Below, one piece after another: positions 30,101 to 51,980 of a stretch of 64,000 nucleotides of DNA (within the stretch, counting starts at the first letter, position 1; each line of letters begins with the position of its first letter). The stretch covers positions 58,060-122,059 of IMG/VR virus record IMGVR_UViG_3300021425_004462. One strand, written 5' to 3'. The notes below the pieces were generated by a model. It made no database searches and was not told where the DNA came from. It saw only the letters and a program-made list of their open reading frames with translations. Both the position numbers and the translations under genes were made by a program. The DNA is from a virus.

Positions 30101-33100
30101 ATCTACATTTTCATGTATAGCAGAAACTTTACAAGTAAAAGGAGTCATGGACATTCTTGGTATATGGTCTCCATATTTGTCAATCAGACTTGCTGTACCC
30201 AGAGCGCCATTAATTGACCAATTATTTTCATTATTCTCCAACAAAACAAGGTCAGATGGTTTCAAGCTTTTTCCAGTATAAAAATCAAACCTGACATTAC
30301 CAAAAGTATTAAAAGCGCCAGCAGATAATTTTAAATCATTGCTTTCGTTTTTATCTTCGTCAAAAAATCCATCAAAATCATAATTATATATTTGATTCTC
30401 GACATCCAAATCAACATAAACCGCAGACGCTCCATCTGCAACAAAATCTACAGCCAAAGATCTCTCCATAGAAGTCTTAGCTCCAGAAACATTTATTATA
30501 ACAGAACTATACTGAGGCAAAATACTTGAACTAGATTCATCATTAAATCTTATCATTTTTTCAAAACCAGTAACCGAAAGCTCTGCTTTTGCTAATCTAG
30601 CTCTAAGCGCTCCGTCCGAACCATCGCTAAATAATGATGCGTCATATTTAAATCCTGAAATTTCATAAAGATCTCCATTTCTAGAATTCTTAAACTGATC
30701 GTAAGAGAAAAATTCATAACCATCAGGAGAAGACAATCTAAAAAGAACATCATGAGGACCCATGGTACTATTTTGATATGTTGCAGTAAACACGCACTTA
30801 TCTTCTTGCCTTGCAGGTAAATATGTACCATCAGATTGCTCTACATACATAAAAGATTTAGGCTCTGCACTCATATCAAGAAAAGTGTATTCTGCGCCAT
30901 CAAATTGTTTTAATTTTCCAAAAAGGGTCAATGAGTCTCCATCGAAAAACAGTTTTCCATCAGGAGTTTGAAAAACGAATGTTCCATCTCCACTAACAGC
31001 GAAACCCTGTTGAGGAGCCCCATTACTATCTTTGCTATCTAAGCCTCCAAAACCTGCACTGCGAATTTGCCCGCTTAAATTATTGCCACCGATTTGTAAA
31101 TCTTGACCATATATAACTTCAGATCTTAACTTATCTGCAGTCAAATTATGGATCTTAGCATTTGTTATCGCTGCATTTTGTATATGTGCACTACCTATCG
31201 AAGCATTGGAAAAAGAATGCCACATAGGAGAAGGTATACCCCCTGCATTTCTTGCTATAATAAAATCATCTGTTTCACCAAGTAAATTAATCTTTGCTTC
31301 GTCAACTCCTATACTAGTTCCCTCTCCTGCGGGATGATAGGATGAAGTATCATAACCTCCACTATAAACTATATTTCTTAAAGGATTTGATATTTCTGAA
31401 GTAAGCAGCTCATTACCCCCTCCTTCCCCTACAAGGCCAAGCTCCTCTTTTTGCTGAGAAGTTAACTGTACAATATTTTTATCATGAGTAGGTATTCTTC
31501 CAGTAGCGCTCCAGTAAATAAAAGGGTCTTCTGTTTTTCCAGCTTCAATAACATAACCCGTGCCTTGATAGTAGACAAAGTGCCTCACCCATTCTACAGA
31601 ACCCTCAGAAGTATTGCCTTTAAATGGATTATTTGGCACTAGAGAAAGAGTGTTGGGAAATGCGGTGGTTATATTTTGTTCAAAATCAGATATATCTGTA
31701 GTTTTTACTTGTCCCAAAGTTAACTCTAAACCCTCTAAATTATCAGAGCTTGAGTTACTTGAGCCAGTGAAAGGTCCTTTATTTCCCGCAAAATCTACAG
31801 GTCTAACCCAAAAATATCTACGATCATTTGCGAGACCTTTTTGAGAAGCTTGCACTGAAGGAGCAGAAGCATCTATATTAAATATATTAGTAGCATTTAC
31901 GATATCTCCAGCAAAGTCATTAAATTCTTTAGGGATCTCGCCAATTGTATATTGAACTCCTTCAATTCTTCTATATCCTGTAGAGTTTTGATGTTGACTC
32001 AAAAATTTTCCGTCGCTGAACTCTAAAAATTTATCAGACAAACCTGTGGACTGCCAAACTTCATAATAATCTATATCATTAGGCTTGCTATTAATTAACC
32101 CATTATCTTTTATTTGTGAACCGGGCTGAGACCAATTCAAGAAATAATTTTCAAATGAAGTATTCCCTTCAAGCCCTTCAACCGGTCCAGGAATTTCGTC
32201 TGTTGTTATATTTAGAGCTGGCCCAGGGTATGAATTAGGATTTCTTGAATAATAATTTTTAGGTAGAACCCATACTTTTTCTAAGTTTCCCTGATTATTA
32301 GTGCATTCGAAAAGCTGACCGCTACCAAAATCATCGAAAGGTAATATCTTATAATAATAACCTGTAATTTCTTCTCCAACTTCAGGGTTATCGTCAATAA
32401 TTTGATTAATATTATCACCAAAACTTAAATCTCCTGCACCCAAAACGCTTTTCACGAAAGGAGCTTCTCCCCTAATAGGTTTTTTATTAGAATCTAGAAT
32501 AGAAAAATTTTCTTTATCAGACCTATATAAAACAACTTCGCTAGTTTTTTCGCCTCTTCCATTGGCGTAATTAAAATTAAATTTTACTTTAGTTACTTGA
32601 TCTTTAGAATCAGCGGTAAAACCTTGAGTCTTAATGACTGGAGGAGGATTATCTCCTATGATTCTTTCTTTTTGAATTACTTCCCCTAAATTATTAATAA
32701 TACCAAGCTCTAGACCCACAGATCTTTTACCGCTTTCAGGCAGATACTTATCTCCATGTATTTGATTATTTAATTCGCGAGTATATTCAAAGTTATAAAA
32801 AACCTTGGCATTATGTATGTTTCCTACAAGAGGTCTATTACCAAGGTCGTCTACATTCGATGACAAAGTATCATTACCTTCGGTTATTCCAGTTAAAAAT
32901 TCATTAGTATGAGGATCAAATAAAGAACCGCTAATTCCAACTATTCCAGGAACAACATCTTGTTTAAATAAAAATTTATATTGATTTAAATCTACTAAAT
33001 TACCGACGCCATCAACAACATCCCAATTAAAAATGAGATCATCTTCTCTTTCGTCAAATCTAATATTATCTAACTTAATGGAAGTAGCAACTTTTTTTAG

Positions 33101-34354
33101 AGTTCCGCCTTCCTCTAAGCCATTTTCTGTTAAATTTAAATATTCTTGAATACCATATTCATCAACGGCGGCAAAAGAATAATAATAATCAAACCCAAAT
33201 TTTTGTTGATTTGAAAAATCTTCCTTACTTCCAGCTTTACCGAACGAACCAAAAATTGGAGGTTTTCCAAGATCTTGCCAGTATTCGGTTGAGGGAGGAG
33301 AAGTATTGCTTGGGTCATTTTGGTGATTTTTCTTAGCTTCATATACCTTACCATCTTCAAATAAAACTTTATCTCCAATATCATATTGAGTTGTAGATAA
33401 TTGAGAATATTCTTCTGCATCTCTAATCGAAGTATAATAATTGACATTATCAACAATGCTATTTGAGCTATAAATTTCATAGTCCTGCTGAATATAAAAA
33501 CCTTGACAATTTAAATTTAAAAAGTCAGTATCTGCACAAATATATGACGCATTGAATTTCCCACCCTCCATATTATATAGAAAATTATCTATATTAGATG
33601 GGTAATTTATTCCAGTCATAACCCCAGTACAAGTTCTATTAAACTTATCGTGAGCAACAATCTCAAGGGTTAAATTTCGATCTATATCTAATTCATTAAA
33701 AAAGTTTTCATTTAAATTTATAGAAAAATCCCTATAGTTATTTAATGAACCTAAAACATCTTGAGACAAAAGGATATCTCGCAACGCTTCTGATTCGCTC
33801 AATATAGAGTTATCAATTGCCTCGGGATTCTCACCGGTTTTAAAGGATAGTGAAAACTTATTAAAAAAAGTGTCGCCGAGCAATTCGCTTGAAAGAACCT
33901 GACCCTCTTTTGCATGTCCGTATGGAGCTATCAAACTCCAAGATATATCTGCGGATCTTCCTACGTATTCTGATTTTATGTAAAGAGAATCTCCCTGTGT
34001 TAAAGGTTCTTTAATAATCTCTTTTCCAATAGATGCATCATTAGGAAGATTATCTATATTAATATCTGAAAATGTAAAAGTATTTTCCAAAAAATTAGGA
34101 AAAATTTCAATTCTATCTTGAATAAATTCAGAACGAATACCTATATCACTTACAGCAAAAATTCTAACATCAAAAATTCCATAATTACCCTGAAGGGGAA
34201 CTGATTTGAAAACACTATCCCCTTCACTTTCAACCAAAGATGAGCCCCTTCCTAATTCGTATCTAAATGAGTAATTATCAGAAGTGCCAACAACTTCATA
34301 ACTTGCGTTAAGGTCGTTAACCGTAAATTCTACACCTATAGCTGTTCTAGACAT
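27125..34354 (-). CDS. giant tail-tip fibre with C-terminal S74 chaperone
   Basis: A 2,409-residue virion protein. The C-terminus (about 2310-2409) is a Peptidase_S74 intramolecular chaperone: SDKRLKDNIIEIKNPLSKIL, GLIAQDVKKIAPHLV, LKYDGIIPFLVGAIKEQQ and a final coiled coil. Such domains trimerise fibres and normally cut themselves off. Other visible parts are a CBM5/12-like segment near 311-370 (YDIGDKVLFEDGKVYEAKKN), fibronectin-like modules in 380-950, a lambda-J-like end around 1020-1160 (NAAITNAKIHNLTADKL), three related modules in about 1500-2090 with an FGLKEGSNALTVVMSQE-type motif, a short GDRGERGSG stretch and a second CBM-like segment near 2120-2175 (VRYGGSDYIALRDN). It follows the J-like gene with TAATG and is probably the central receptor-binding fibre. 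Confidence 0.8.
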   Translation of the reverse strand: MSRTAIGVEFTVNDLNASYEVVGTSDNYSFRYELGRGSSLVESEGDSVFKSVPLQGNYGIFDVRIFAVSDIGIRSEFIQDRIEIFPNFLENTFTFSDINIDNLPNDASIGKEIIKEPLTQGDSLYIKSEYVGRSADISWSLIAPYGHAKEGQVLSSELLGDTFFNKFSLSFKTGENPEAIDNSILSESEALRDILLSQDVLGSLNNYRDFSINLNENFFNELDIDRNLTLEIVAHDKFNRTCTGVMTGINYPSNIDNFLYNMEGGKFNASYICADTDFLNLNCQGFYIQQDYEIYSSNSIVDNVNYYTSIRDAEEYSQLSTTQYDIGDKVLFEDGKVYEAKKNHQNDPSNTSPPSTEYWQDLGKPPIFGSFGKAGSKEDFSNQQKFGFDYYYSFAAVDEYGIQEYLNLTENGLEEGGTLKKVATSIKLDNIRFDEREDDLIFNWDVVDGVGNLVDLNQYKFLFKQDVVPGIVGISGSLFDPHTNEFLTGITEGNDTLSSNVDDLGNRPLVGNIHNAKVFYNFEYTRELNNQIHGDKYLPESGKRSVGLELGIINNLGEVIQKERIIGDNPPPVIKTQGFTADSKDQVTKVKFNFNYANGRGEKTSEVVLYRSDKENFSILDSNKKPIRGEAPFVKSVLGAGDLSFGDNINQIIDDNPEVGEEITGYYYKILPFDDFGSGQLFECTNNQGNLEKVWVLPKNYYSRNPNSYPGPALNITTDEIPGPVEGLEGNTSFENYFLNWSQPGSQIKDNGLINSKPNDIDYYEVWQSTGLSDKFLEFSDGKFLSQHQNSTGYRRIEGVQYTIGEIPKEFNDFAGDIVNATNIFNIDASAPSVQASQKGLANDRRYFWVRPVDFAGNKGPFTGSSNSSSDNLEGLELTLGQVKTTDISDFEQNITTAFPNTLSLVPNNPFKGNTSEGSVEWVRHFVYYQGTGYVIEAGKTEDPFIYWSATGRIPTHDKNIVQLTSQQKEELGLVGEGGGNELLTSEISNPLRNIVYSGGYDTSSYHPAGEGTSIGVDEAKINLLGETDDFIIARNAGGIPSPMWHSFSNASIGSAHIQNAAITNAKIHNLTADKLRSEVIYGQDLQIGGNNLSGQIRSAGFGGLDSKDSNGAPQQGFAVSGDGTFVFQTPDGKLFFDGDSLTLFGKLKQFDGAEYTFLDMSAEPKSFMYVEQSDGTYLPARQEDKCVFTATYQNSTMGPHDVLFRLSSPDGYEFFSYDQFKNSRNGDLYEISGFKYDASLFSDGSDGALRARLAKAELSVTGFEKMIRFNDESSSSILPQYSSVIINVSGAKTSMERSLAVDFVADGASAVYVDLDVENQIYNYDFDGFFDEDKNESNDLKLSAGAFNTFGNVRFDFYTGKSLKPSDLVLLENNENNWSINGALGTASLIDKYGDHIPRMSMTPFTCKVSAIHENVDLGNGPTDLFLASDFVTVYGSQPGNDSYTVLLENENHTYVADEYGQVTTSLLAEGKTAIIFRRGHKYYNFDSSSPYESDSYSVGTIAHNLKDFTLGTNYRINTITRTIDGAQVKLAELEILNLPERLIDSNDNIVSEAVLDLPIFDNKYVDNSANDEFPPVRFDKKYTFTKSREGKKSRGIELSVTDQTIQYDTVGNVRAPTSIDVEVEGFNFHNNNPEFIFYKYSNTNNEWQILHPPLGTKPVPNDIDNPPASYKTKDKKITLAIGSGSGKIAGTYESNDLPIKIKCRSWDGSNNESSSDFEFVAEDRTTIFGLKEGSNALTVVMSQEFSNVPVTLGANNQENLNFDNTLNTISVFEGVTSFSYQNVKANLAPEQFHVETTLSGVTLDSNTTKPSFKVASWTSSSNIAHIDYQITVKDQDGQSKTFTKRQSLSKNKEGSPARAVDLTASPVQAVSYNEDDLTKITSGDITISAAPRNDLGGNKFYKYSKSGLGTLKRIGGGSYTEGSYIEDLDEIVYVPPADIKGTSESLLATITCNFSETGSANSELASDQISIFALRAGSNATTIILSNEHHGLTYDLENDPSPTGSGTNIQVFLGSVALTPRKYGSAAGEVTSGSQLSDGEFFVQASPSSNITAGSQSISSKTLIFADASGFKSTDNGAFINYNITVKDFKGQVSASPITKKQTFSVTFKGDRGERGSGPSYRGEWNDATNYKGAVGDNLNVDIVRYGGSDYIALRDNVNKRPDQNTSDWRSLGAQFSSVATKLLITESSVVKDILTIGDQDDYDNNGTAYIRTHNENFFMAGILNGDNKFALGQSASDLITINHATISNAKNITSAEATITDLTSTSITSPTINGTTINASSSLNGGDITGTSLTVTGDVVAFYGSSSDKRLKDNIIEIKNPLSKILSIKGVEFEWNNKSKIYSGKDYGLIAQDVKKIAPHLVKQREDGYLGLKYDGIIPFLVGAIKEQQKTIESLEERISKLENNF

Positions 34355-37300
34355 TATATACTTAAATCTGAAAGGATTAAACTTGTTGGGGCTTCAGGCA
34401 AAGTCATATTAGCCTGAGGCGGAATTGGCATTAAAGGAACTCTAACAGACGAGTCCTTGTCGACAAAATTAAATTTAGAAGAGTTATACTCAATACCTTG
34501 AACTTCATATTGATTGTTATCTAATTCTTTTACACTTAATGTCCTAAATAATTGAGATTCAAAAGCCCTAGAAGCTTTAGTGCTTACATCTTCAACAAAA
34601 TAAATTTCTCCTTTATCGGATATTGTTGCGCCTTGAAATTGCTCATAAGCAGAAGTAGAATCAATTAATTCTATAGTATTAACATCAATATATATTGTAT
34701 TCCATTCTTTATTTATAATATTATTTAAGCCCTGATTAGAAGAATTGAAATTTTTAATTTTTATTTTTCTATTTTTAAATAAATCAACTCCATGATTTTC
34801 ATTTAATTTTATTATAAGAGCGTTAACGTTTTGCCTAGAGCTGTCTTCTGAAGAGCTTTCTATACTCAATATCTCAGATTCATTATAAGCAGGATTCGAA
34901 GATTCTTCTAAATAATTACTAACTTCTGAAGGAACCGATGTTGGGATTTGATTAGAGTTGGAAGATTCTCTAAGTTTCAAACCTAAAAATTGACTAGACA
35001 CATGAATAACATCAAAATTTCTATCTCCTAATAAATATGTATCACCTACAGAGTACCCAGATATGTTATTATAAACATATATTCTTATTGGGTCAGGGTT
35101 GCTACCTTCATACACAACCGCAGCCCACGAACCTCCAGATATTGCATCGAGGTAAAACCATGCAATTTTATTCTCTCCAAAAGAATGCGTTTTTGCTATT
35201 TCTGAATTACTCCACACCCAACCTATTTCTGTCCAAAAAAACCAAAACCCATCATTCCCAGAATTATCTTTATTAACCATATTTCCTAAGTACAACCAAC
35301 CAAAACTCACAGACCAAAACCAATCACTACCCTCAGGATTATATATTTGTCCAAATAAGCTTGAATTATAAAATTTGTCAGGCTCAGGGTTACCTGATTG
35401 ATTAACAAAAACTCTATTCAAAACCCCGCTATAGGTAGAAGGTTGCCCTCTGGAGCCGCTAGATCCGAAAAGGCCTCTTAAAGAGAATGATGCACCTATT
35501 TCTAGCTTTTTGAACGCTTTTAAGGTTGCTTGGGAAATAGAACTACCTATATCTTCTACAGAAACAAAATGCTCGCCACCCTCATTAAGGAAGTAATCTT
35601 TTCCTTCGTCAATTATATTAACCTCCTTACCATTGGAGGTTTCTGATACCTTAAACGTATTCGATGTAGAGTTTATTACAAAATAAGAACTAACCCCCTT
35701 CTTTTCTTTATCTAAGCCAGACGGCAAAACCCCAAGAGAAGAAAATCTAACTCTATCACCATCCTGAAGACCGTGTTTATATATATTTATTGTATTAGTT
35801 GCAGTGTCTACAAAAAATTGAAATTTTATCCTTAAATCCGAAATAAGAGTTTTTTGCCCTTGAGGCCCTTTGTTTTTAAGATTTTCATCAACAATTATAG
35901 ACCCATCGAATCTTAAAGCTTGAGGGGCGCCAATAGAATCTATATCTATATCTTGATCCTCTTTAGATATTTCATTAATAGCTCTTGCAGAAATAGATTC
36001 ATAAGTTTCTCTATCAAGCCCAGTATTTATTAAAATTTCTACACGCCTGATATTAGGCACATTCCTTAAACTCTTATCTATTAAAATACTTAACCTATCT
36101 TTTTCTTTTGTATCTCCATTTTCATCAATATATTCACTTTTTGTTAACAAATCAAGTATTCTTCCACTCATAGACTCTCCACTTCTATTTTCGTCAGACA
36201 CCTCGAAAACCGAACCTGGATAAAGAAATGCTCCTTCCGTACCAGTAACAAATTGAATTTTTTCTGATTCTAAATTAGAAGAAGCAAGAACCCATTTAGC
36301 TAATCTCCTGGCCATACTTTTAGAAGTTATCCCTAACCCCATAGTTTCTTTTTCTATATAACCATATATTTGCATAGCGGCCGGATCTTCTTCGTAAACA
36401 ACATCAGGCTTATAGTTCTTTTCTCTATTATTAAATCTTACAAGACTCGCGGTAATTTTTTTATTCCTTGCGAATCCAGAATATGAAAACCCTTCTTTTT
36501 TTCTTACATTAGAATTGTTAAATAGAATAATTGGATTTTTTTTCGAATCTTGCACTACTGATATTTTACCCGCGGTGTATATAACCATACCCCTGAATAA
36601 TGAAGCTAGAGAATTAAGAGAGTTAACTGCTTCAGACTGTTCAGTTAAATATAGATTGCAAGCAAATCTTGGTTCAACAGTAGAATGGTTAATCTGAGTA
36701 GCGCAAGCTCCGATTGTCTTTCTAATATTGCCATCAGCATAAGATGATGGCACATCATTAAAAGCTGGCCCAGATAATGTTAAAACCATTTTACTACCAT
36801 TTAACACTTCAGACCTTATCAAAAATCTTTCCTCAATATTGTACTCCCCGCTCCTAATTGAAGAATTTTTAGATAAATTTTTCCTTACAGCTATGGCTTT
36901 CGATGAAGTCCCTGAGATTTGATCATCAGAATAATTATGTTGATGAATGAAAAAAGCAACTTTCTTACCTTGGAACTGTTGATTTTTTCCAAAATCTTTT
37001 AAAAAATCCTCAACCCCATATGCAACTTCTTGTATATTTCCAGAAACATTTACGTATTGAATAGAGTCAATAGTTATAGTAAAACTTCCGGCAGAAGTTC
37101 CTGAATTATAGTCTATATCATTATTTGTAGTAAAAGCCAAAGGGAATCCCGTTTTAGTTTCTATTGGATAATTAGTCTCAACAAGTTCATCGCAATATTT
37201 TGATATCTTATAGAGCTGCCACTTATCAACCATTAAATCACTTACGCCGTATCTACCAAGCCCATACCTATAATTAGTTAACAAATCAAAAAAGACCCAA

Positions 37301-39093
37301 GCAGGATTATTACTCCAATATTTTTTTTCATCAGATATAGAAAAAATGGATTGATTTTCATCTGATTGCCCTTTAAATAAACCGTCCCAAGGCCCATCGT
37401 ATCGCCTAGACTCAGGGTCATAGTTAGAAGGAATTAATACTTTTTTAAGTTTTGCGTGATAAGACCTTAAAGGTATATTTTGGAAATTTTTACTATCAAA
37501 ACGAATTTTTACGGCGGCAGTATTTGGGTAAATTAGTTTTTCATTTATCATTTCTTGAACATAAGCAATTCTTAGCATTTTATTCCTCATAACTCCACCA
37601 ACATTTCCAATATATGTACTATTTGATCCTAACGGATTATCGTAAGCTACATTGTTAGCTTGATCTTTTGTCAGATCAAGTTCTGCATTTAATTTTACTA
37701 CAGAAAAACTTAATTGCTCAGAGTTATTAAAAAATAATACCTTTGGATCATATTTTATAGAAATACTAAAGTTGTAAGAGCTTGACGCTAACCCCTGCAC
37801 AAAGAAGAACTGATTAGAGCCTGACTCTATAATTTGTATACCTCTAGTAATTTTTGATGAATTTACCTCTGTTGCGCCTTCCGTCGCTTTTATGAAATCT
37901 ATATCGCTACGACTAATTCCACTATCAGGGTTTAAAATATTTATTCTCTTACCGTTTTTTGTTATGAATATAGCGAACCTCATGGAATCACTAAGCGAGT
38001 CTCCAGGGTCATCATTCATTTGCAGTAATTGCACAGAAAATTCAAAGACAATTTGATCTACATCGCTACTTGTTATTCCATGAGAAAAAATATACGCACC
38101 CCTATTAATAGCTTGATTAAAATCCTCATAAACAGAAATTCCAGTGCTACCAACATAAGGTCCCGGACCATGAAGCTTTGTATTATATTCTATTGTATAA
38201 CTACAAGTATCCGAAAGTGAGCCAACATCTGTCTCAGAACCATCCTTTAAAACAGGTCCGCCTTTTTTATTTTTTTGATCCTCATTTAAAACGTAATTAA
38301 AAGTTGCAGAGCTCCCTTCTGAAGTTGTATTTTTAATAGGGACATTATTTAAATAAATACCTTGACGAATATCTTCTTTAGGCAAAAGATTTCCTCTCTC
38401 ATCAACTAATCCAGCTATAGGACCTTCACATAGAGCATCTATATATTCCGTTTCAGAAAAAGACTCTAAAACTGTAGAGTTTGAAGTGGTATTCCTTCTT
38501 AAATCAAATGTTTCAACTTTAGCATTTATATTTACACAACCAACTCTCAAAAGACCGTAACCCAAGGGAACAGGAATCCCTTGAGCTTGTCGATTCCTAC
38601 TGCCAGACATTAACATTGATTTAGTGGAAACTTTTGTTCCTGGCTTAGGCGGCTTAGGTGGCTTAAATAAGGCTTGAACAACAAAAGATATAGCAACAGC
38701 AACAGCGACATAAGTTGCAACAGTTAACGCTCCAGCGAGAAAAGTCGAAGTTACACCCATCTTCACCCAAAATCCAAATACAGCGGTACTTGTTATAGCT
38801 CCCCCTTTAGGTACTGGAACTAAATGCAACTCATTAGATTCAATTTTATCAGCTATATTATTACTTAATTTAAGCAAATTTTCATCAAGATCATCTTCCC
38901 CACTAATATTTTCAGGTTTTTTAGTAAGTATAACATATTTATTTCCTTTAATATGCTCAGACGATGTATAACTATAAAAACCATCCGAATTAGCTTCTAT
39001 AGCAGCTAAAGCTTCTTGCACAGAATTAATATTCAACTCAAAACTCGAGCCAAACTTTTTACCTAATTTTCCATGCAGATAAACCTTTTTCAT
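34354..39093 (-). CDS. tail tip protein: lambda I-like domain fused to J-like protein
   Basis: A 1,579-residue protein from the ATG at 39093 (a GTG three bases earlier is an alternative; AAGG nine bases before the ATG supports it). Residues 1-75 are a beta-grasp domain like lambda gpI (VYLHGKLGKKFGSSFELNINSVQEALAAI). Residues about 110-150 are a hydrophobic segment (GALTVATYVAVAVAISFVVQALF) of the kind at the end of gpI. The rest is gpJ-like: GIPVPLGYGLLRVG, IDALCEGPIAGLVDERG, IYLNNVPIKN, then a large hub. In lambda, I is a separate assembly protein and is not in the finished virion. Aromatic repeats around 1250-1330 (GSDWFWSVSFGWLYLGN, EIGWVWSNSE) resemble short SH3- or lectin-like modules. 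Central hub of the tail tip. Confidence 0.82.
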   Translation of the reverse strand: MKKVYLHGKLGKKFGSSFELNINSVQEALAAIEANSDGFYSYTSSEHIKGNKYVILTKKPENISGEDDLDENLLKLSNNIADKIESNELHLVPVPKGGAITSTAVFGFWVKMGVTSTFLAGALTVATYVAVAVAISFVVQALFKPPKPPKPGTKVSTKSMLMSGSRNRQAQGIPVPLGYGLLRVGCVNINAKVETFDLRRNTTSNSTVLESFSETEYIDALCEGPIAGLVDERGNLLPKEDIRQGIYLNNVPIKNTTSEGSSATFNYVLNEDQKNKKGGPVLKDGSETDVGSLSDTCSYTIEYNTKLHGPGPYVGSTGISVYEDFNQAINRGAYIFSHGITSSDVDQIVFEFSVQLLQMNDDPGDSLSDSMRFAIFITKNGKRINILNPDSGISRSDIDFIKATEGATEVNSSKITRGIQIIESGSNQFFFVQGLASSSYNFSISIKYDPKVLFFNNSEQLSFSVVKLNAELDLTKDQANNVAYDNPLGSNSTYIGNVGGVMRNKMLRIAYVQEMINEKLIYPNTAAVKIRFDSKNFQNIPLRSYHAKLKKVLIPSNYDPESRRYDGPWDGLFKGQSDENQSIFSISDEKKYWSNNPAWVFFDLLTNYRYGLGRYGVSDLMVDKWQLYKISKYCDELVETNYPIETKTGFPLAFTTNNDIDYNSGTSAGSFTITIDSIQYVNVSGNIQEVAYGVEDFLKDFGKNQQFQGKKVAFFIHQHNYSDDQISGTSSKAIAVRKNLSKNSSIRSGEYNIEERFLIRSEVLNGSKMVLTLSGPAFNDVPSSYADGNIRKTIGACATQINHSTVEPRFACNLYLTEQSEAVNSLNSLASLFRGMVIYTAGKISVVQDSKKNPIILFNNSNVRKKEGFSYSGFARNKKITASLVRFNNREKNYKPDVVYEEDPAAMQIYGYIEKETMGLGITSKSMARRLAKWVLASSNLESEKIQFVTGTEGAFLYPGSVFEVSDENRSGESMSGRILDLLTKSEYIDENGDTKEKDRLSILIDKSLRNVPNIRRVEILINTGLDRETYESISARAINEISKEDQDIDIDSIGAPQALRFDGSIIVDENLKNKGPQGQKTLISDLRIKFQFFVDTATNTINIYKHGLQDGDRVRFSSLGVLPSGLDKEKKGVSSYFVINSTSNTFKVSETSNGKEVNIIDEGKDYFLNEGGEHFVSVEDIGSSISQATLKAFKKLEIGASFSLRGLFGSSGSRGQPSTYSGVLNRVFVNQSGNPEPDKFYNSSLFGQIYNPEGSDWFWSVSFGWLYLGNMVNKDNSGNDGFWFFWTEIGWVWSNSEIAKTHSFGENKIAWFYLDAISGGSWAAVVYEGSNPDPIRIYVYNNISGYSVGDTYLLGDRNFDVIHVSSQFLGLKLRESSNSNQIPTSVPSEVSNYLEESSNPAYNESEILSIESSSEDSSRQNVNALIIKLNENHGVDLFKNRKIKIKNFNSSNQGLNNIINKEWNTIYIDVNTIELIDSTSAYEQFQGATISDKGEIYFVEDVSTKASRAFESQLFRTLSVKELDNNQYEVQGIEYNSSKFNFVDKDSSVRVPLMPIPPQANMTLPEAPTSLILSDLSI

Positions 39094-39113
39094 CACCTTA
39101 GACCTTAATTTTA

Positions 39114-44434: not shown

Positions 44435-45561
44435 GATGCAGGATTATGGTAAGTATCATAACCTTTATAACTTAAAGATATAGACATTTCACCCTCTATA
44501 GATGAATTTATAGTCTCTCCGATTAATCTTACATTATTTCCGGTAAAAGAGTTGATGATAGTATCATTTCTTGAATCTCTTAACTCTATTTCTACAGTGC
44601 TTTTTGGAGCGGATTGAATTCTATCCTTAACCTCCCTAACTTCATATTCATCTGCAATCATAGTAAAATTTATATTAGTTTCAATTGGGTACTCCACATT
44701 AATTTGTATAGGCTCTAAGTTTTGATAACTTGCCTGGTTTGTCAAATTCCAATCTTCATTGTCTCCCTTTGGTAATGCATATATTGGATTTAAACTAATT
44801 GATCTACTATAACTGAAATCACTAATAGCGTCGATCTCGAAATCGCTCACTTTTAGTTTTATTTTTGATTGATCAGTGAATTGAACCTCAGGGTGTTCTT
44901 GGTGAATAATGTCCGATAATTTATATGAAACCCCTTGGAAAGCATTTTTACCCAAACCAAGAACGTCTCCATCTTCTACTATTATAGATTCATCATATAG
45001 ACTAGCGTATAAACCTTCAGATATGGAAATATCTTTTTGAATAAATTTTGGCTGTAAATTTACTGTGCCCGCATCAAGAACCCTTCCTAAAGAATTAGTA
45101 TAAAAAACATAATCTCCGTCAAACGAACTCATATGATCACTTTTTAATTCATAAGAATTTGTTTTCATTACATTTTTACCTAGTTCTCCATAAACAGTTA
45201 TATCTGTTTGTATTTCAGGTATTTGGCCAACAGAGCAAGATATAGAATAACTATTAATTCTCCCGTTCTTAAAACCGAAACCCTTACGATTATCATCGTA
45301 TAATATAACTCCACTCAAATTATTTTCATCAAAGGAATATTTCCCTAAAACATTAGTTTCAAGCAAAGGGTCAAAACCAACCATTTGTCTTGATATTGAA
45401 AAATTACCCTCTAAAGGTTTTTCGATTAATGCATCTATAAAACCAACTCCAGCAACCTTAATAGGTTTTTCGCTAATACCATAACTTCCATCAATATTAG
45501 TCACGCCAGATAGCGCATAGCCATTTACAACTATTGTTTGCTCATAATTAGAATAGCTCAT
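44431..45561 (-). CDS. tail-tube-like protein paralogue (B)
   Basis: A 376-residue beta-rich protein. It starts MSYSNYEQTIVVNGYALSGVTNIDGSYGI, followed by LEGNFSISRQMVGFDPLLETNVLGKYSFDE and FGFKNGRINSYSISCSVGQIPEIQTDITVYGELG. The latter is the same 'N-G-x-I-x-x-Y-S-x-x-x-x-V-G-x-x-P-x-x-x' strand pair seen in the 56180 product (NGYISNYSVEASVGSMPTANV) and in the 57526 product (NCFLKNYSYSAEVGSLPESTI). It starts at an ATGA overlap with the tape-measure gene and is the first gene after it. By analogy with siphophages this slot holds the distal tail protein or other tip-ring proteins, which share the tube fold. Confidence 0.55.
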   Translation of the reverse strand: MSYSNYEQTIVVNGYALSGVTNIDGSYGISEKPIKVAGVGFIDALIEKPLEGNFSISRQMVGFDPLLETNVLGKYSFDENNLSGVILYDDNRKGFGFKNGRINSYSISCSVGQIPEIQTDITVYGELGKNVMKTNSYELKSDHMSSFDGDYVFYTNSLGRVLDAGTVNLQPKFIQKDISISEGLYASLYDESIIVEDGDVLGLGKNAFQGVSYKLSDIIHQEHPEVQFTDQSKIKLKVSDFEIDAISDFSYSRSISLNPIYALPKGDNEDWNLTNQASYQNLEPIQINVEYPIETNINFTMIADEYEVREVKDRIQSAPKSTVEIELRDSRNDTIINSFTGNNVRLIGETINSSIEGEMSISLSYKGYDTYHNPAS

Positions 45562-48500
45562 GATGGACGAGTATCTTCAAGTAATCCTCCTGGTCTTTGC
45601 TCTTCAACAATTACCCCTAAAACTTGTAGTTTTATTTTTTCTGTCAACTCTTTCATTCTATCTCTAGAATCCTTACTTTTATCATCTCCGTCTTGAGAAT
45701 TTTCTTGAGATTGTTTTCCAGATTTATCGATATTAAGAGTTATATTAAAATTATTAGTTGCCGAGGATGAATTAACTTTAGATACCCCAGGATCTTCGCT
45801 CCCGACCATGCCTCCGTCATAAAATTTACCTGCATTTATTTTGTCAAGCATAGGTTTACCAATTTGTCTTGCACTACTTGCCTTTATAACATATTCTCCT
45901 TCGCTAAGCATTGCTGGAATTTGGTCGATCCCAGATTTACCAGAAATATGTCCACCAGAGGCGTATTTATTAATTCGTCCTCCGTTATTAAAGACTCCCG
46001 GCGCAATGGGAACACTACCTTCCATACCAGCGCTAACACCTCCTGGAACAAATGTTGCCCCCGGATTAAATAAGCTGTTAACCCCCATACTTAAACCAAT
46101 AGATAAAGCAGTGCCAAGTAATTGATTCCTCAAAGCCTTCTTTTTCATTTTTTTTCTTATAGCCTCCTGCCTTTTCCTCTCTCGTTCTGCGCGCATAGCC
46201 GAAGCAGCATCAGTATCTTCCGCCAGAGCGACGCTTTGGGCTTCTCCGCTATAGAAAAAACCAGACATAGGCATACTTTGATAAGCTCTGCCAGAATCAA
46301 TCCATCGACTTGATCCTTTATTGGCGCGTAGTGCAGAGCCAGGTTCACCTCCTGCGTTTAAACCTTGAATCTCACCTCTTGCATTTAAATTATGCATAAA
46401 ACTTGAGCCGTACTTATTTACAGCTCTTCTATTCATAACATACTCCCCATTTGTTACCATTGCAGGAACGCCTCCACCTGCAGAGTATTTTCTCACGCTT
46501 CCTCCGTTAGACATAAGTCCCATGCTTCCTACAATTGTATTTGCCGCAGAAGTTAAAAATGCATTTTGAATAGCTTGAAGAAAGCCGATTGCAATATTAT
46601 TCAAAACATCACCTAAGTCTTCGCTTCTATTAATGGCCGCATCCATAGCCGAGACTAGTCCATCACGAAAATGAGTTGCGGTTATCGTTCCTAACTGGTA
46701 ATCCAATTTACTAGCGTCATCTAACATCTTATCAGATGCGTCAGTAAAACCGCCAGAAAAAGATGCTTCATGCTTAATTTGTTCTGCAGCTATTCTCTTC
46801 TCTAGAGAAAGCTGTTTTGTTTTTTGATCGATAATGGCATCATTTGTGGCTTTAATTTGCTCACTTCGATCGTGGCTTTTTCTAAGTTCTTCAGTTAATT
46901 TTCTTTGCGCCCCCTCTTTTGTTTCGCCTTTTTTTAATTCTATATCTCCAGATTCTAAACCTTTTTGCCTTTGGGTTAATTCCAATCGCTTTTCAGCCTC
47001 TTTACTTTCTTCTATTAGTTGATTTTTTCTTATTTCAGCTATTTCATAACTTAAATCTAGTTCTTTTTCCCTAAACTTTATGTTATGACGTTCTGATATC
47101 CTTTTGTAGCCTGGACCATCAGAAAGAGTGCGTTGCAATTTTGTGGTTTTTCTAACTTCATTACTGATTTTGTCCCCTAATGCCATCGTCCTAATATAAT
47201 CTTGGTGAGCTTCTTTTTGCTTCTTTATTGCATCAAGTCTACCGGCAACAAGATCATTTATCACTTTTTCCTTACCAGCCCTTTCTCCAGCTAACTCGTT
47301 CTCTTTCTTTGCAAGGTCAACGGAGTTTTCCTTTGCTAAAACCATAACTTCTATTTTCTTCTTAATAGCATCATCAACTTTTACTTGTTCATATAAAGTT
47401 TGGAGTTCTTCAGCACTCATCTCATTTAATCTTTCGGTAAGATTTACTGTTTTAGCAAGAAATTCTAACCTAGACTTATATTCTGTGCTTTGAGGATCTA
47501 CATCGCCATAATCCTTGTCCATTTCTGATTTTAATAAATTTTTCTTTAATTCATTTTGCAACGTGTCATCTTTCATTGATAAAAGCTGATTTCTCAAGTT
47601 GGCAGATGCAGAATCTTCTTTGAGAGCTAGTTGTTCAGAGGCTCTATTTAAAGCTTCTTGGTATTTAATTTCTGATTTTTGCCGTTCTGTCAAAAATTCA
47701 CCCCCAAGAGAAGTTAGAGCTTTTAAATCCATTGCTTGTTTATCATATTTATCTTTTATCTTTAACTGGCTCATCGCCGCCGCTTTTTGAGCTTTTAATT
47801 GAGCTTTTTGGAGATTAAGTTGAAGAATAATTCCTTCATTTTGTTTTGTATTCAAGTCTCTTTGCGCTTCTACCTGCTTAAGTATATCTGCATAAGCTTT
47901 TGCTATTTCTGCAGGGTTTCCTTCGTCGATTTGTTTTTTTAATTCTTCGGGGGAGAAATATTCGAGATCGCCCTTATCAAAGCTTCTCCCTCTTGCGGTT
48001 GAACCTTTTTTAAGGGCTGCAGTTTGAATTTTCATATCTGCAGGCAATTCATCTAATGCAGCCTTAATCGCTTCGGGTCTAGCGGCAGTACCCATTTGAG
48101 CTAAGATTTGATCTTCAATTCTTTTTCTTTGTTCTTCCGAACCTCTTCTTTCTCGTCTTTGCGTCGCACCTCCTCGATTCGAGACCATTTTTCCTGTATA
48201 AACTGCTTTATCAATTTGCTCTCTTGAAACATTTATTCCAGATTCTTTTAATAGATTTGAAATTGCAGATGGAGAACCTGCCCCTCTTCTAAGTATATCT
48301 TGCATATCTAAATTAAGACTGCCTAGCATTTGACTCCTAACATTTTCTCCCATTCTCATACCAAATCCACCACTTTTACTTGGGTCTATAGCGGAGAGCT
48401 TATTGAAATTATCCACATCTATCTTTCGCTTTTTTCCTCCAAAAGAAAATTCTACTAAACCACCTTTTCCAAAATTTGTTTTAGCTAAAGATGGTGCTAA

Positions 48501-51500
48501 CGATTGAGCTAAAGCAGCACCAGTTTGAATGCTTGCTTCTGTTCGTGCTTTCGCGAATTCCTGCTGAGCAACTGAAGCTTCTTTAGCGCTATTTGCCAAT
48601 CCATACAAAGCTCCGCCTACGGCACCTATTGCCGTACCAAGAGGTCCAAACATCATGCCCATTGCAGCGCCTGTACCTGCGCCCATCAAGGCCCCACCAG
48701 CAGCATAACTTCCCCCTTGCATTCTTTGAACTCTTTCTTGCTCGGTTTCTCCTTGTCTTCCTTCTTGTAAAAAGCCAGCAATCATTGGAGCTCCCATCAT
48801 TAAACCCATACCCCCAAACCCAGACAACCCTCTTCCAACCGCACTATTTGAAAAAGCTTGATTAGCGTTAATAGCTTTTTGTGTTAAACCTCCAGCTCTA
48901 GCAGCAATCCCCATTTTTTTAGTAGAATCTGCAGCCATTTTTGATGCATAAGCTTGATCTTGAAGATTTCTCGTTAATTGTTTTTCAACACCTTGCAATC
49001 TTTTAGTTACATCTTTTCCAGATTTCTTTAGTTGGTTAAGTTCTTTTTGTTCTTTAAGTAATTTTTTATTTTCAACATTTAATTCTTTTTGTAATTCGGC
49101 TGCTGACTTATATTCATCTCTTCCTGCACCAAAATCAGATAAAAAGCTTGAGGCGTAATTAGGCACATACCCGTTGGCTCCAAATACATCTTTTAATCCA
49201 TTTGGTTCGTCTCGAGTATTAGTTACTCCAAGACCAATTGGATTACCTTTATTCATTAGAGCGGGATGTGTTCCTACTCTGATTTGGGAAACGGGAACTC
49301 CTGCCTCTCGCTCTCTACCTATTGCATCAGATAATGGGTTTGCGAAATTAGGAATGTAACCTTGCGCAAACAAACCTCTTTTTTGCGTTCTTGGATCAAC
49401 TCCTGGTTTTTTGCCAAAAGCAAATGCTAGTGCAGGATCAGTACTTTTACCTCCAGAGCGAAAAAGCTTTTCTTTGAGTATTTTATCGGCCATGTTCTGA
49501 GCATTACTTGTAGAATCTTGAGCTTTGTAATCAGCCAGATTAGTTTTAGACCAGCTTCCTCCAAATAATAATTTTAGATCCTCTTTTTGCTCTTTAGTAG
49601 GATTCCTTAAATCAAAATCTCCACCTATACCCTGAGCAACACCTTCTATGCCACCAGATTGCCCCTTTACTTGTTTTATTTTTGTACTTATAGCAGCTTC
49701 AAATAATGCTCCCACAACAGAAGTTAGAGCTCCAGCTGCCCCACTAGAGCCATCATTTAATGAATCTTTTATAGATTTTAAGCTAGCCGTCCCCGTCCCA
49801 ATTCTAAAAGAGTCGGCAAGCATTTTACCTTGTCTAACCGCAGTTTTCTCAACAGATTCATAAAGCTGTTCGACTAAATTTTTTTTCTTATTTTCCGCTC
49901 TTGTGGAAGCATTTTGTAAGACGCCATATTTTTTAAATCTTACTTTTGGTAATTTAGCTTTAGGCACTCCATATATAGAGGTTGCTGGTTTCTCTAAAAC
50001 AGTTCTAGAACCAGTTTCGGGAGTTAGCATATGCGCGTAATTAATAGCGTTAAATATTTGTCCCTGAGGATTGACTCCTGCTCCGCCTCGATTAAAATTA
50101 GGAACAAACCCTTTAGCTGCGTATGGATCAAATCCATGTACAGCCCCAAATGCTTGTTGATAATTTTTGCCTGCCTTACTAGACAAAGGAGGCATTATTG
50201 CTGGTTGACTTAATCCCGAGAATGTTTTTACTTTTTCTGCGCTATTATAAATAATAGATCCCTCGCCAGGCATATCCATTGATCTAATACTTCCTGCAGC
50301 ATACCCACCGCGAGCAGCTTGTTCTCTTTCTGGATTTGCAAAATTTGGTATATGACCATAAGCCCTTCCCCTGCGAGGTGTTAGGTTTGCTCCGAAGCCT
50401 TTCGAGTATAATGTAGCTGCACTGCTTTTAGCGACAGAGTCGAGCATTTTTGCTTCAGCCACTTGAGCTCTTAAAAGTCCAAGAATAATTTTTTCTTTTT
50501 CTGTCCTAGAAATGTCCGTGCGCAACATTTCTTTGCTCAACTCAGAGCTTCTTCCAAACAGTCCTACAAGAGATGTTTGAATTGCTTTTTGTTTTTGAGC
50601 TTCGCTAGTTACTCCAATTAATGAAGTTAAACTTTCTTTAGCGAAACTTGCAGCTTTTAAAAATAACTTACCGAATACAGCTGTTATAATAACTAAGCCT
50701 GGACCACTAATTACGTTACCTAAACCTCTCAGGAATCCATTTGCAAATTTATTTCCAGTTCCTTCTCCGTCTCCTAAAATTCCAGATAAACCCTCTGCGC
50801 CGCTTTTGACTATATTTAAAACCTTTTCAATTCCTGGGGCAAGCATTATCTCCCCGATTTGAGCAGAAACTTGTTTAATTGCTAGCCCAGTTTCGGTCGC
50901 CATCGCGGCCATGGTATTTCTTAATTGTTCATTTTTTTCTATAGCTTCGTTTGTTGCTCCTGCAGAAATTTGAGTTGCGTTCGCGAGAATACCATTTTGT
51001 TTCGCGGCATCACCAAGAACAGCTTTCAAAACGTTGATTTGAAAAACTCCACCGACAGTCTGAGCTATTTGAGCTTTTTGAGCTTCAGATAATGAATCGA
51101 AAGTGTTTGCGAGATCAGTTAATATTTTTTTTGCTCCAAGCGTTTTACCTTCGACATCTCTAACAGCAATCCCTAAATTCTCAAGTTGATTTAAAGTATC
51201 AGTTCTTCCAATACGAGTAAAAATTGTTTTAAAGGAGTTACCAATAACTTTACCGCCTCGAGCTGTTTGTTGCTGAGCGGCAGTAACCAAGCCAATTAGC
51301 TCATCAATATCTACTCCAGCCCCTTTAGCTGCCGCACCAGTTCTAGCTATAGCGTCAGCGAAATCTTCTGCGCTAACCGCAAATTTAACATCAACAGCGG
51401 CGAACTTACTTACTAATTCAGTAGTATCTTTAATTTGATTACCATAAGTATTCATTGCAGCGGTTAAAGATTTAACTGCTTCAGCGGAATCCATACCTGT

Positions 51501-51980
51501 CAACCTAGTAAGAATAAGTGCGTCTTTTGTGCGCTTTAAGGATTCTTCTACGCTAAGGCCTTGACGAGCATATTCTGTCGCTGCATCGGCAGCCACTTTG
51601 AATGCAGCCCCAGTTTCTTTAGCTACTTTAAACAATCCATCACTAAATGCATCTAGCTTTTGAGTGCTCAGGCCCATCACGACATTGATATCTGCTAAAG
51701 ATTTCTCAACTTCAACCATATTACGAACCATTCCTTTAAATGCGTCCGCCATACCATTAATTATTGCCATGGAAGCTCCGAAAGCTATAATACGAGCATT
51801 TGCAGCTTCCATCGACTTGCTGAATTCATCAGCAGCCCGTTTCATGTTTCCTAGGGGTTGAGTTGCACCCTTATCATCAACCGTAATTTTAATGGGTTGA
51901 CGCCGAATTCTGTTTACAGCAGACTGAACCGCTGCCTCAAGAGGTTGTGTATTACCGTGTACATCAAGATTTATAGCCAT
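45558..51980 (-). CDS. tape measure protein with nuclease-like insert
   Basis: A 2,140-residue tape measure. Residues 1-400 carry the TP901/phage-minor-tail core (AFGASMAIINGMADAFKGMVRNMVEVEKSLADIN, ATEYARQGLSVEESLKRTKDALIL, GGKVIGNSFKTIFTRIG). Hydrophobic helices follow near 420-470, and long coiled-coil parts occur around 1300-1800. Residues 540-945 are unusual: four GYIPNFAN-type motifs at 542, 624, 874 and 937 bracket short modules. One of these contains E761, D788-F-D790 and D817-Y-K819, a layout like PD-(D/E)XK nucleases. The C-terminus has two copies of an AGGGVPAMVTNGEYVMNRRA-type module. Its gene length predicts a tail of roughly 0.3 micrometres by the usual 1.5 angstrom per residue rule. 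Confidence 0.9.
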   Translation of the reverse strand: MAINLDVHGNTQPLEAAVQSAVNRIRRQPIKITVDDKGATQPLGNMKRAADEFSKSMEAANARIIAFGASMAIINGMADAFKGMVRNMVEVEKSLADINVVMGLSTQKLDAFSDGLFKVAKETGAAFKVAADAATEYARQGLSVEESLKRTKDALILTRLTGMDSAEAVKSLTAAMNTYGNQIKDTTELVSKFAAVDVKFAVSAEDFADAIARTGAAAKGAGVDIDELIGLVTAAQQQTARGGKVIGNSFKTIFTRIGRTDTLNQLENLGIAVRDVEGKTLGAKKILTDLANTFDSLSEAQKAQIAQTVGGVFQINVLKAVLGDAAKQNGILANATQISAGATNEAIEKNEQLRNTMAAMATETGLAIKQVSAQIGEIMLAPGIEKVLNIVKSGAEGLSGILGDGEGTGNKFANGFLRGLGNVISGPGLVIITAVFGKLFLKAASFAKESLTSLIGVTSEAQKQKAIQTSLVGLFGRSSELSKEMLRTDISRTEKEKIILGLLRAQVAEAKMLDSVAKSSAATLYSKGFGANLTPRRGRAYGHIPNFANPEREQAARGGYAAGSIRSMDMPGEGSIIYNSAEKVKTFSGLSQPAIMPPLSSKAGKNYQQAFGAVHGFDPYAAKGFVPNFNRGGAGVNPQGQIFNAINYAHMLTPETGSRTVLEKPATSIYGVPKAKLPKVRFKKYGVLQNASTRAENKKKNLVEQLYESVEKTAVRQGKMLADSFRIGTGTASLKSIKDSLNDGSSGAAGALTSVVGALFEAAISTKIKQVKGQSGGIEGVAQGIGGDFDLRNPTKEQKEDLKLLFGGSWSKTNLADYKAQDSTSNAQNMADKILKEKLFRSGGKSTDPALAFAFGKKPGVDPRTQKRGLFAQGYIPNFANPLSDAIGREREAGVPVSQIRVGTHPALMNKGNPIGLGVTNTRDEPNGLKDVFGANGYVPNYASSFLSDFGAGRDEYKSAAELQKELNVENKKLLKEQKELNQLKKSGKDVTKRLQGVEKQLTRNLQDQAYASKMAADSTKKMGIAARAGGLTQKAINANQAFSNSAVGRGLSGFGGMGLMMGAPMIAGFLQEGRQGETEQERVQRMQGGSYAAGGALMGAGTGAAMGMMFGPLGTAIGAVGGALYGLANSAKEASVAQQEFAKARTEASIQTGAALAQSLAPSLAKTNFGKGGLVEFSFGGKKRKIDVDNFNKLSAIDPSKSGGFGMRMGENVRSQMLGSLNLDMQDILRRGAGSPSAISNLLKESGINVSREQIDKAVYTGKMVSNRGGATQRRERRGSEEQRKRIEDQILAQMGTAARPEAIKAALDELPADMKIQTAALKKGSTARGRSFDKGDLEYFSPEELKKQIDEGNPAEIAKAYADILKQVEAQRDLNTKQNEGIILQLNLQKAQLKAQKAAAMSQLKIKDKYDKQAMDLKALTSLGGEFLTERQKSEIKYQEALNRASEQLALKEDSASANLRNQLLSMKDDTLQNELKKNLLKSEMDKDYGDVDPQSTEYKSRLEFLAKTVNLTERLNEMSAEELQTLYEQVKVDDAIKKKIEVMVLAKENSVDLAKKENELAGERAGKEKVINDLVAGRLDAIKKQKEAHQDYIRTMALGDKISNEVRKTTKLQRTLSDGPGYKRISERHNIKFREKELDLSYEIAEIRKNQLIEESKEAEKRLELTQRQKGLESGDIELKKGETKEGAQRKLTEELRKSHDRSEQIKATNDAIIDQKTKQLSLEKRIAAEQIKHEASFSGGFTDASDKMLDDASKLDYQLGTITATHFRDGLVSAMDAAINRSEDLGDVLNNIAIGFLQAIQNAFLTSAANTIVGSMGLMSNGGSVRKYSAGGGVPAMVTNGEYVMNRRAVNKYGSSFMHNLNARGEIQGLNAGGEPGSALRANKGSSRWIDSGRAYQSMPMSGFFYSGEAQSVALAEDTDAASAMRAERERKRQEAIRKKMKKKALRNQLLGTALSIGLSMGVNSLFNPGATFVPGGVSAGMEGSVPIAPGVFNNGGRINKYASGGHISGKSGIDQIPAMLSEGEYVIKASSARQIGKPMLDKINAGKFYDGGMVGSEDPGVSKVNSSSATNNFNITLNIDKSGKQSQENSQDGDDKSKDSRDRMKELTEKIKLQVLGVIVEEQRPGGLLEDTRPS
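49476..50358 (-). other. PNFA-motif and nuclease-like segment of the tape measure
   Basis: Residues about 542-835 of the tape measure. Motif copies: GHIPNFAN at 542-549, GFVPNFN at 624-630 here; GYIPNFAN at 874-881 and GYVPNYA at 937-943 just beyond. Acidic and lysine residues: E761, D788, D790, D817 and K819. The region is neither helical coiled coil nor hydrophobic, unlike the rest of the tape measure. Confidence 0.5.

Follow-up and report, generated by a model that had tools for sequence, protein, structure and literature searches.

The tape measure gene and its internal module

The DNA analysed here (the window), from an uncultured aquatic virus, makes up the final 64 kb of the 122,059-base IMG/VR virus record IMGVR_UViG_3300021425_004462, and on its minus strand lies the gene for a tape measure protein (TMP), inside which a nuclease-like module stands between copies of a short PNFA-type peptide (Table 1). 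A preliminary description of this DNA had named the gene a tape measure, and both its similarity to PhageMin_Tail and to PHROG tape measure proteins and its large size bear this out. The gene is placed among tail genes, with minor-tail and J-like genes downstream; tail-type neighbours include J-like, minor tail and tail fibre proteins, and a sheath-like protein lies farther off (PHROGs). The four motifs listed in that description begin at the residues it gave (542, 624, 874 and 937), and the peptides it offered as a nuclease signature were likewise located, GALFEAAIS at residue 757 (E761), GGDFDL at 786 (D788, D790) and ADYKAQ at 816 (D817, K819). Loci with related TMPs, labelled L004, L005, L096, L388 and so on (W being the window), were used for comparison.

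A divergent family with a nuclease-like signature

Iterated profile searches started from the window segment recovered 77 and then at least 176 relatives, most of them 15-25% identical to it, in which G757, E761, D790, D/E817, K819 and K833 (K or Q) are near-invariant. Of the proposed signature E761, D790, D817 and K819 are conserved, but the conserved K833 and G757 had been overlooked, and D788, also put forward as catalytic, was rejected, being variable in relatives; the conserved aspartate is D790. The spacing of 27 and 29 residues that had been likened to PD-(D/E)XK nucleases lies within the range of the superfamily (29 and 27 in the window, counted via D790) but is not diagnostic, the family spanning 18-29 residues from E to D and 19-37 from D to (D/E)xK. 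When relatives were checked for substitution of the acidic residues, these were found to be kept, the first being E or D in 173 of 173 sequences, the second D in 173 of 175 (E in two) and the third D or E in 176 of 176, with the lysine present in 175 of 176. An acid in helix 1, an aspartate and (D/E)xK are thereby conserved in relatives, as membership of the PD-(D/E)XK superfamily requires, and the order and chemistry of the conserved residues are those of a putative PD-(D/E)XK active site, with K or Q in the next helix. Retention of this signature in 176 relatives of such low identity, together with the profile chain to UPF0102 described below, argues for the PD-(D/E)XK-like reading first suggested for the segment.

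The family is present in 66 of 76 complete TMPs, and its core is under purifying selection between the window and L005 (77% identical), with a ratio of nonsynonymous to synonymous substitution rates (dN/dS) of 0.085. A domain with the fold and active site of the superfamily may also serve without cleavage, by binding DNA or in a metal-dependent structural role in the tail, given that TMPs are structural proteins and that the nuclease activity is putative; nevertheless, what is conserved coincides exactly with the catalytic set, nearly all other positions being variable, and we regard such a role as very improbable.

Profile chain to a PD-(D/E)XK family

Three further sets of cargo modules display the same residue order (GExFE/RLDF/GEAK; GExDA/FFDL/EVKT; VVDA/IEVKSG), and in hhalign comparisons a chain leads from the TMP family to the Z modules (58%, catalytic residues aligned), from Z to the Y modules (78%) and from Y to UPF0102/YraN (34%). 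UPF0102 (YraN) and Mrr_cat, which we take to be members of the PD-(D/E)XK clan, gave 43% against each other as a positive control, comparable to the last link of the chain, and at no link did any of 100 column-shuffled targets score as high as the real one. Of the 10 complete TMPs that lack the nuclease family, at least 6 have their own versions of an E...D...[DE]x[KR] pattern, an assignment made partly by eye; searched as a regular expression, the pattern matched 17 of 133 other segments, where shuffles gave 3.4.

Exchange of modules at the motifs

Compared with L096, L056 and L116, the window TMP is 83-86% identical over residues 1-541 and about 80% over the entry segment, 22-36% over the cargo and 82-84% over the exit segment, identity falling at motif 2 and returning at motif 3. 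The entry segment is 77-82% identical in close relatives except L004 (91%) and is still recognisable in the distant TMP of L395, and the exit segment is 82-84% identical in L005, L116, L096, L056 and L020 and 95% in L004. An upstream border of the motif 2 type is also seen between L066 and L071, while L004 is 91-100% identical to the window through motif 4 and 36% identical in the stretch that follows. Among 143 TMP pairs with at least 70% N-terminal identity (a rough figure, too low in at least one case), 109 have nuclease modules less than 40% identical. The sharpest example is provided by L296 and L373, which are 99% identical at the N-terminus and 17% in their nucleases, with identity extending up to the motif at residue 626, lost immediately beyond it and restarting at the motif at residue 908. 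Because homology ends and restarts at the motifs, even beside 17%-identical nucleases, the suggestion that they are repeated module borders, and their interpretation as borders of module exchange, are strongly supported by these alignments. As a separate observation, the exit segment sequence GLGVTNTRDEP is recognisable in the very different TMPs of L036 and L395.

These results also bear on the main rival explanation, according to which an active PD-(D/E)XK nuclease would work on the phage's own DNA, trimming, nicking or resolving a genome end or assisting packaging or circularisation. Near-universal presence among complete TMPs would be expected of such a core function more than of an accessory toxin, and the TMP is generally known to lie near the leading end of the DNA. 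However, a core enzyme with a fixed substrate is unlikely to be exchanged for 17%-identical versions between near-identical phages, and SNase, GNAT, P-loop and other effector-like modules stand beside the module or in its place; consequently, we hold this explanation to be unlikely.

The PNFA motif across viral tape measures

IMG/VR was scanned with a degenerate DNA pattern for G[FY]xPNFA that takes no account of gene identity, and at least 120 matches were obtained, almost all in long frames of tape measure size and most of these with two to eight copies. With two more patterns extending the set, at least 931 copies of the consensus A-A-x-G-[FY]-[IV]-P-N-F-A were counted in at least 263 non-redundant open reading frames (ORFs) from IMG/VR or metagenome-assembled genomes (MAGs), nearly all of them TMPs, against 1.5 expected from composition-preserving shuffles, a description which overstates the enrichment because the ORFs were selected for possession of the motif. 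N-terminal TMP homology is detectable in 168 of the 263 frames; many of the others are truncated where the fetched stretch ends. In the 76 complete TMPs the final 500 residues are free of motifs, and the first 500 contain 7 of 331; the final two motifs are usually 54-77 residues apart and enclose a constant piece (in the window, ...GLGVTNTRDEP...), and the cargo span ahead of them measures 210 to 2563 residues.

Copies within a gene have synonymous codons in common at a frequency of 0.54, compared with 0.50 predicted from the codon usage of the gene, and given this limited sharing selection appears to act on the peptide, which disfavours a conserved DNA site. At the protein level the peptides would most likely act as linkers between modules or as docking or processing sites. 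Mere hinge peptides, with exchange reflecting the ordinary mosaic evolution of long phage proteins and no part in delivery, would fit with the mosaicism known in phage proteins and with the sequence-level mosaic signals that Smug et al. (2023, PMC10684548) reported in TMPs, although recent cases could not be confirmed in that study. Yet among the modules are enzyme-like domains that lack a structural rationale, and one motif recurs up to nine times per protein and at every border; the probability of this explanation is low.

Other cargo modules

The sample contains at least 87 clusters of other segments. SNase, predicted unambiguously as an unrelated nuclease of another kind, lies between motifs in the TMPs of L388 and L395 and scores above the Pfam cut-off there, and a third TMP-sized frame with SNase lies in the L413 record, outside the fetched stretch. 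A GNAT module in such a slot also exceeds the Pfam cut-off, a P-loop module matches a phosphate-loop protein in PDB (2e-6), and HAD-like and HExxH (zincin-like) modules were recognised by eye only. Several effector-like domains may be mixed in one polypeptide, as with SNase and the PD-(D/E)XK-like module in L388 and L395 and with P-loop, HAD-like and nuclease modules in L028; the TMP of the window carries one cargo module, and the multidomain (polyvalent) character is found only in relatives.

Further modules were noticed on the side. L039 (5042-6751, minus) and L065 (5327-7036, plus) have a 570-residue module in which a GHKL ATPase domain (Pfam 4e-5) precedes HEAAH, a sequence of the kind found in zinc metallopeptidases. 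A module that appears kinase-like by eye (GxGxxG, GVKKF, D[LF]HGSNY, [LI]D[PVA]G) occurs in L040 (3864-4442, minus), L072 (2622-3200, plus), L089 (7387-7974, minus), L299 (4273-4854, minus) and L319 (1093-1674, minus), with no convincing match in Pfam or PDB. The first cargo module of L064 (7921-8550, minus) looks by eye like an ADP-ribosyltransferase (LYRG ... TTTSF ... EREV), with no match in Pfam. Finally, a short module with GRxFE ... [VI]DF ... FADA[HY]xGxGH in L025 (9086-9601, minus), L261 (9327-9863, minus) and L380 (residues 551-733) looks like a nuclease-pattern variant with a substitution at the (D/E)xK lysine.

Elsewhere in the window, a tail-sheath-like protein occurs in one genome together with a minor tail protein and a central fibre resembling lambda J (5161-8124 and 34354-39096, both minus), and a 2409-residue protein (27125-34354, minus) has about 170 final residues that match C-termini of baseplate wedge initiators and tail fibres (PHROG 2e-32).

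Table 1. Features of the tape measure gene in the window
Feature	Residues	Position	Strand	Basis
Tape measure protein gene	1-2140	45558..51980	minus	single 2140-residue ORF; PhageMin_Tail 2e-29; PHROG tape measure 4e-54
Constant N-terminal part	1-541	50358..51980	minus	83-86% identity to L096, L056, L116
Hydrophobic, membrane-helix-like stretch	423-441	50658..50714	minus	hydropathy 1.93 over 19 residues
Motif 1, GHIPNFA	542-548	50337..50357	minus	fits family motif AAxG[FY][IV]PNFA
Entry-side constant segment	549-623	50112..50336	minus	...IIYNSAEKVKTFSG..QPAIMPP..SKAG..Y...F...HGFDPY
Motif 2, GFVPNF, upstream border of cargo slot	624-629	50094..50111	minus	identity to L096/L056/L116 drops here
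Cargo module, PD-(D/E)XK nuclease-like	630-873	49362..50093	minus	176-member family; profile chain to UPF0102
Putative metal-binding acid in GxxFE helix	E761	49698..49700	minus	E 168, D 5 of 173
Putative metal-binding aspartate	D790	49611..49613	minus	D 173, E 2 of 175
(D/E)xK signature	D817-Y818-K819	49524..49532	minus	D/E 176/176; K 175/176
Conserved K/Q in following predicted helix	K833	49482..49484	minus	K 150, Q 26 of 176; helix from averaged propensities
Motif 3, GYIPNFA, downstream border of cargo slot	874-880	49341..49361	minus	identity to relatives returns here
Exit-side constant segment	881-936	49173..49340	minus	SDAIGREREAGVPxSxIRV...GLGVTNTRDEPNG
Motif 4, GYVPNYA, border to variable C-terminal half	937-943	49152..49172	minus	L004 95-100% identical as far as this motif (seg1 91%), 36% beyond
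Glycine-zipper hydrophobic region	1052-1125	48606..48827	minus	hydropathy and sequence

Discussion

What the sequences show is the motif itself, a nuclease signature kept throughout at least 176 divergent domains, the swapping of modules at motif borders, and slots of this type filled by other enzyme-like modules. In view of these observations we consider it probable that residues 630-873 form a PD-(D/E)XK-type nuclease carried as exchangeable, motif-bordered TMP cargo that would reach the host at ejection. Delivery is suggested by general TMP biology, and catalysis is putative.

Several points weigh against this reading. The module family gave no direct profile match in Pfam, PHROGs, NCBIfam, PADLOC or PDB chains, whether single sequences, profiles or consensus sequences were used, and direct hhalign comparison with Mrr_cat and UPF0102 stayed below 1%. 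Many PD-(D/E)XK families are known to be mutually undetectable by sequence, and a direct match is thus no strict requirement. Averaged propensities, only partly informative, place a helix between D790 and D817, a position at which a hairpin is found in many superfamily members; the shortest E-D spacing in the family leaves little room for strand 1, and a folded domain of about 240 residues is spatially demanding inside the tail tube. The link between the Y modules and UPF0102 pairs the GE and EVK motifs and leaves the middle D unaligned, and for this reason the transitive profile similarity to this PD-(D/E)XK family is supportive rather than conclusive. The best PDB sequence match, a hemopexin-fold lectin, was rejected as a candidate, spanning GxxFE...FD and not DxK, but as a partial match it counts on the same side. 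If the conserved acids and lysine belonged to a different enzyme fold, or the pattern were convergent, then the missing direct profile or structure match, the unusual helix and the partial lectin match would all be accounted for; the chain to UPF0102 with its clean nulls, and an order of GxxFE, D, (D/E)xK and K/Q that is the superfamily's own, nonetheless make this quite improbable.

TMPs leave the tail at ejection and help the DNA across the envelope, as established for several siphophages (PMC11126660, PMC13190303). By analogy, the TMP of the window would exit the tail, enter or span the host envelope and present or release the nuclease inside the host, where it may cut host DNA or RNA at the very outset of infection, with the chromosome, a plasmid or the nucleic acid of a defence system as possible targets. 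The cargo module is flanked by the hydrophobic stretch at residues 423-441 and the glycine-zipper region at 1052-1125. The slot is set between a constant N-terminal part with its entry segment and a constant exit segment, with AAxG[FY][IV]PNFA at every border, and these homologous segments on either side could permit modules to be exchanged by recombination. On the most economical reading, the TMP would carry effectors into the cell together with the DNA, with the nuclease as the near-constant item, and conflict with host factors would lie behind its extreme divergence and its exchange. A broader proposal, which we advance only tentatively, is that the TMPs of a large group of uncultured aquatic phages are self-contained effector racks in which PNFA is a dedicated processing or docking signal and folded enzyme modules (nucleases, kinases, acetyltransferases, ADP-ribosyltransferase-like and others) ride the tail, are released in the host during ejection and are exchanged between phages as cassettes. 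Were this correct, the largest structural gene of many aquatic phages, usually regarded as no more than a ruler, would be an injected arsenal too, and host takeover in the first minute would become searchable by sequence. Since the motif marks the start and the end of each module, it would provide a ready-made list of candidate enzymes directed against hosts or their defences, and its borders suggest natural insertion sites for loading protein cargo into phage tails.

Regarding distribution, tblastn against cultured-phage records gave no match to the module, and the whole TMP matched cultured phages only around residues 10-475, among the matches listed. TMPs of the PNFA type occur in contigs binned as Flavobacteriales, Flavobacteriaceae, Verrucomicrobiales and others (short MAG contigs, possibly mis-binned), and among 296 genomes of the phylum searched the module was found in one, the query genome itself. 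No description of the motif and architecture was found in openly licensed literature, and a prior description elsewhere is possible.

Comparison with known systems

UPF0102 (YraN) and Mrr_cat share with the TMP family the order of a GE or GxxFE helix, D and (D/E)xK, and the profile chain reaches UPF0102; in contrast, the TMP family matches neither profile directly and has an extra predicted helix between D and (D/E)xK. A variable effector on a constant carrier, the mark of polymorphic toxins, is also found here. In those systems, as Zhang et al. are said to have set out in 2012, a constant carrier bears exchangeable effector tips, nuclease-fold effectors are common, and the toxin is usually C-terminal and accompanied by immunity genes. 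The TMP cargo, on the other hand, is internal, and no immunity gene was noticed, none having been searched for.

The SNIPE defence nuclease also acts at the TMP during genome injection, but the enzyme is the host's: it binds the TMPs of phages and cleaves their DNA, which is the reverse situation (PMC13190303). Tme, from the contractile injection system of Streptomyces davawensis, is a TMP homologue that bears a nuclease with shown DNase activity, with hydrophobic helices in the same polypeptide (PMC11126660). It differs in being a bacterial injection-system protein with a C-terminal, EndA-like (DRGH) nuclease, whereas the module described here is internal, exchangeable, of another nuclease type and found in viral TMPs. 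The polyvalent proteins of phages and conjugative elements (Iyer et al. 2017, PMC5512222) are likewise large, multidomain and thought to be injected with DNA, with an overlapping repertoire of GNAT, kinases, zincin-like metallopeptidases, nucleic-acid-targeting enzymes and ADP-ribosyltransferases (ARTs). Tape measures were not mentioned in that paper when it was searched by term; in the present case the carrier is the TMP itself, a single repeated peptide borders the slot, and a PD-(D/E)XK-like module is hardly ever missing. Polyvalent proteins are the nearest concept to the system of the window, and Tme is the nearest experimentally shown TMP-related nuclease.
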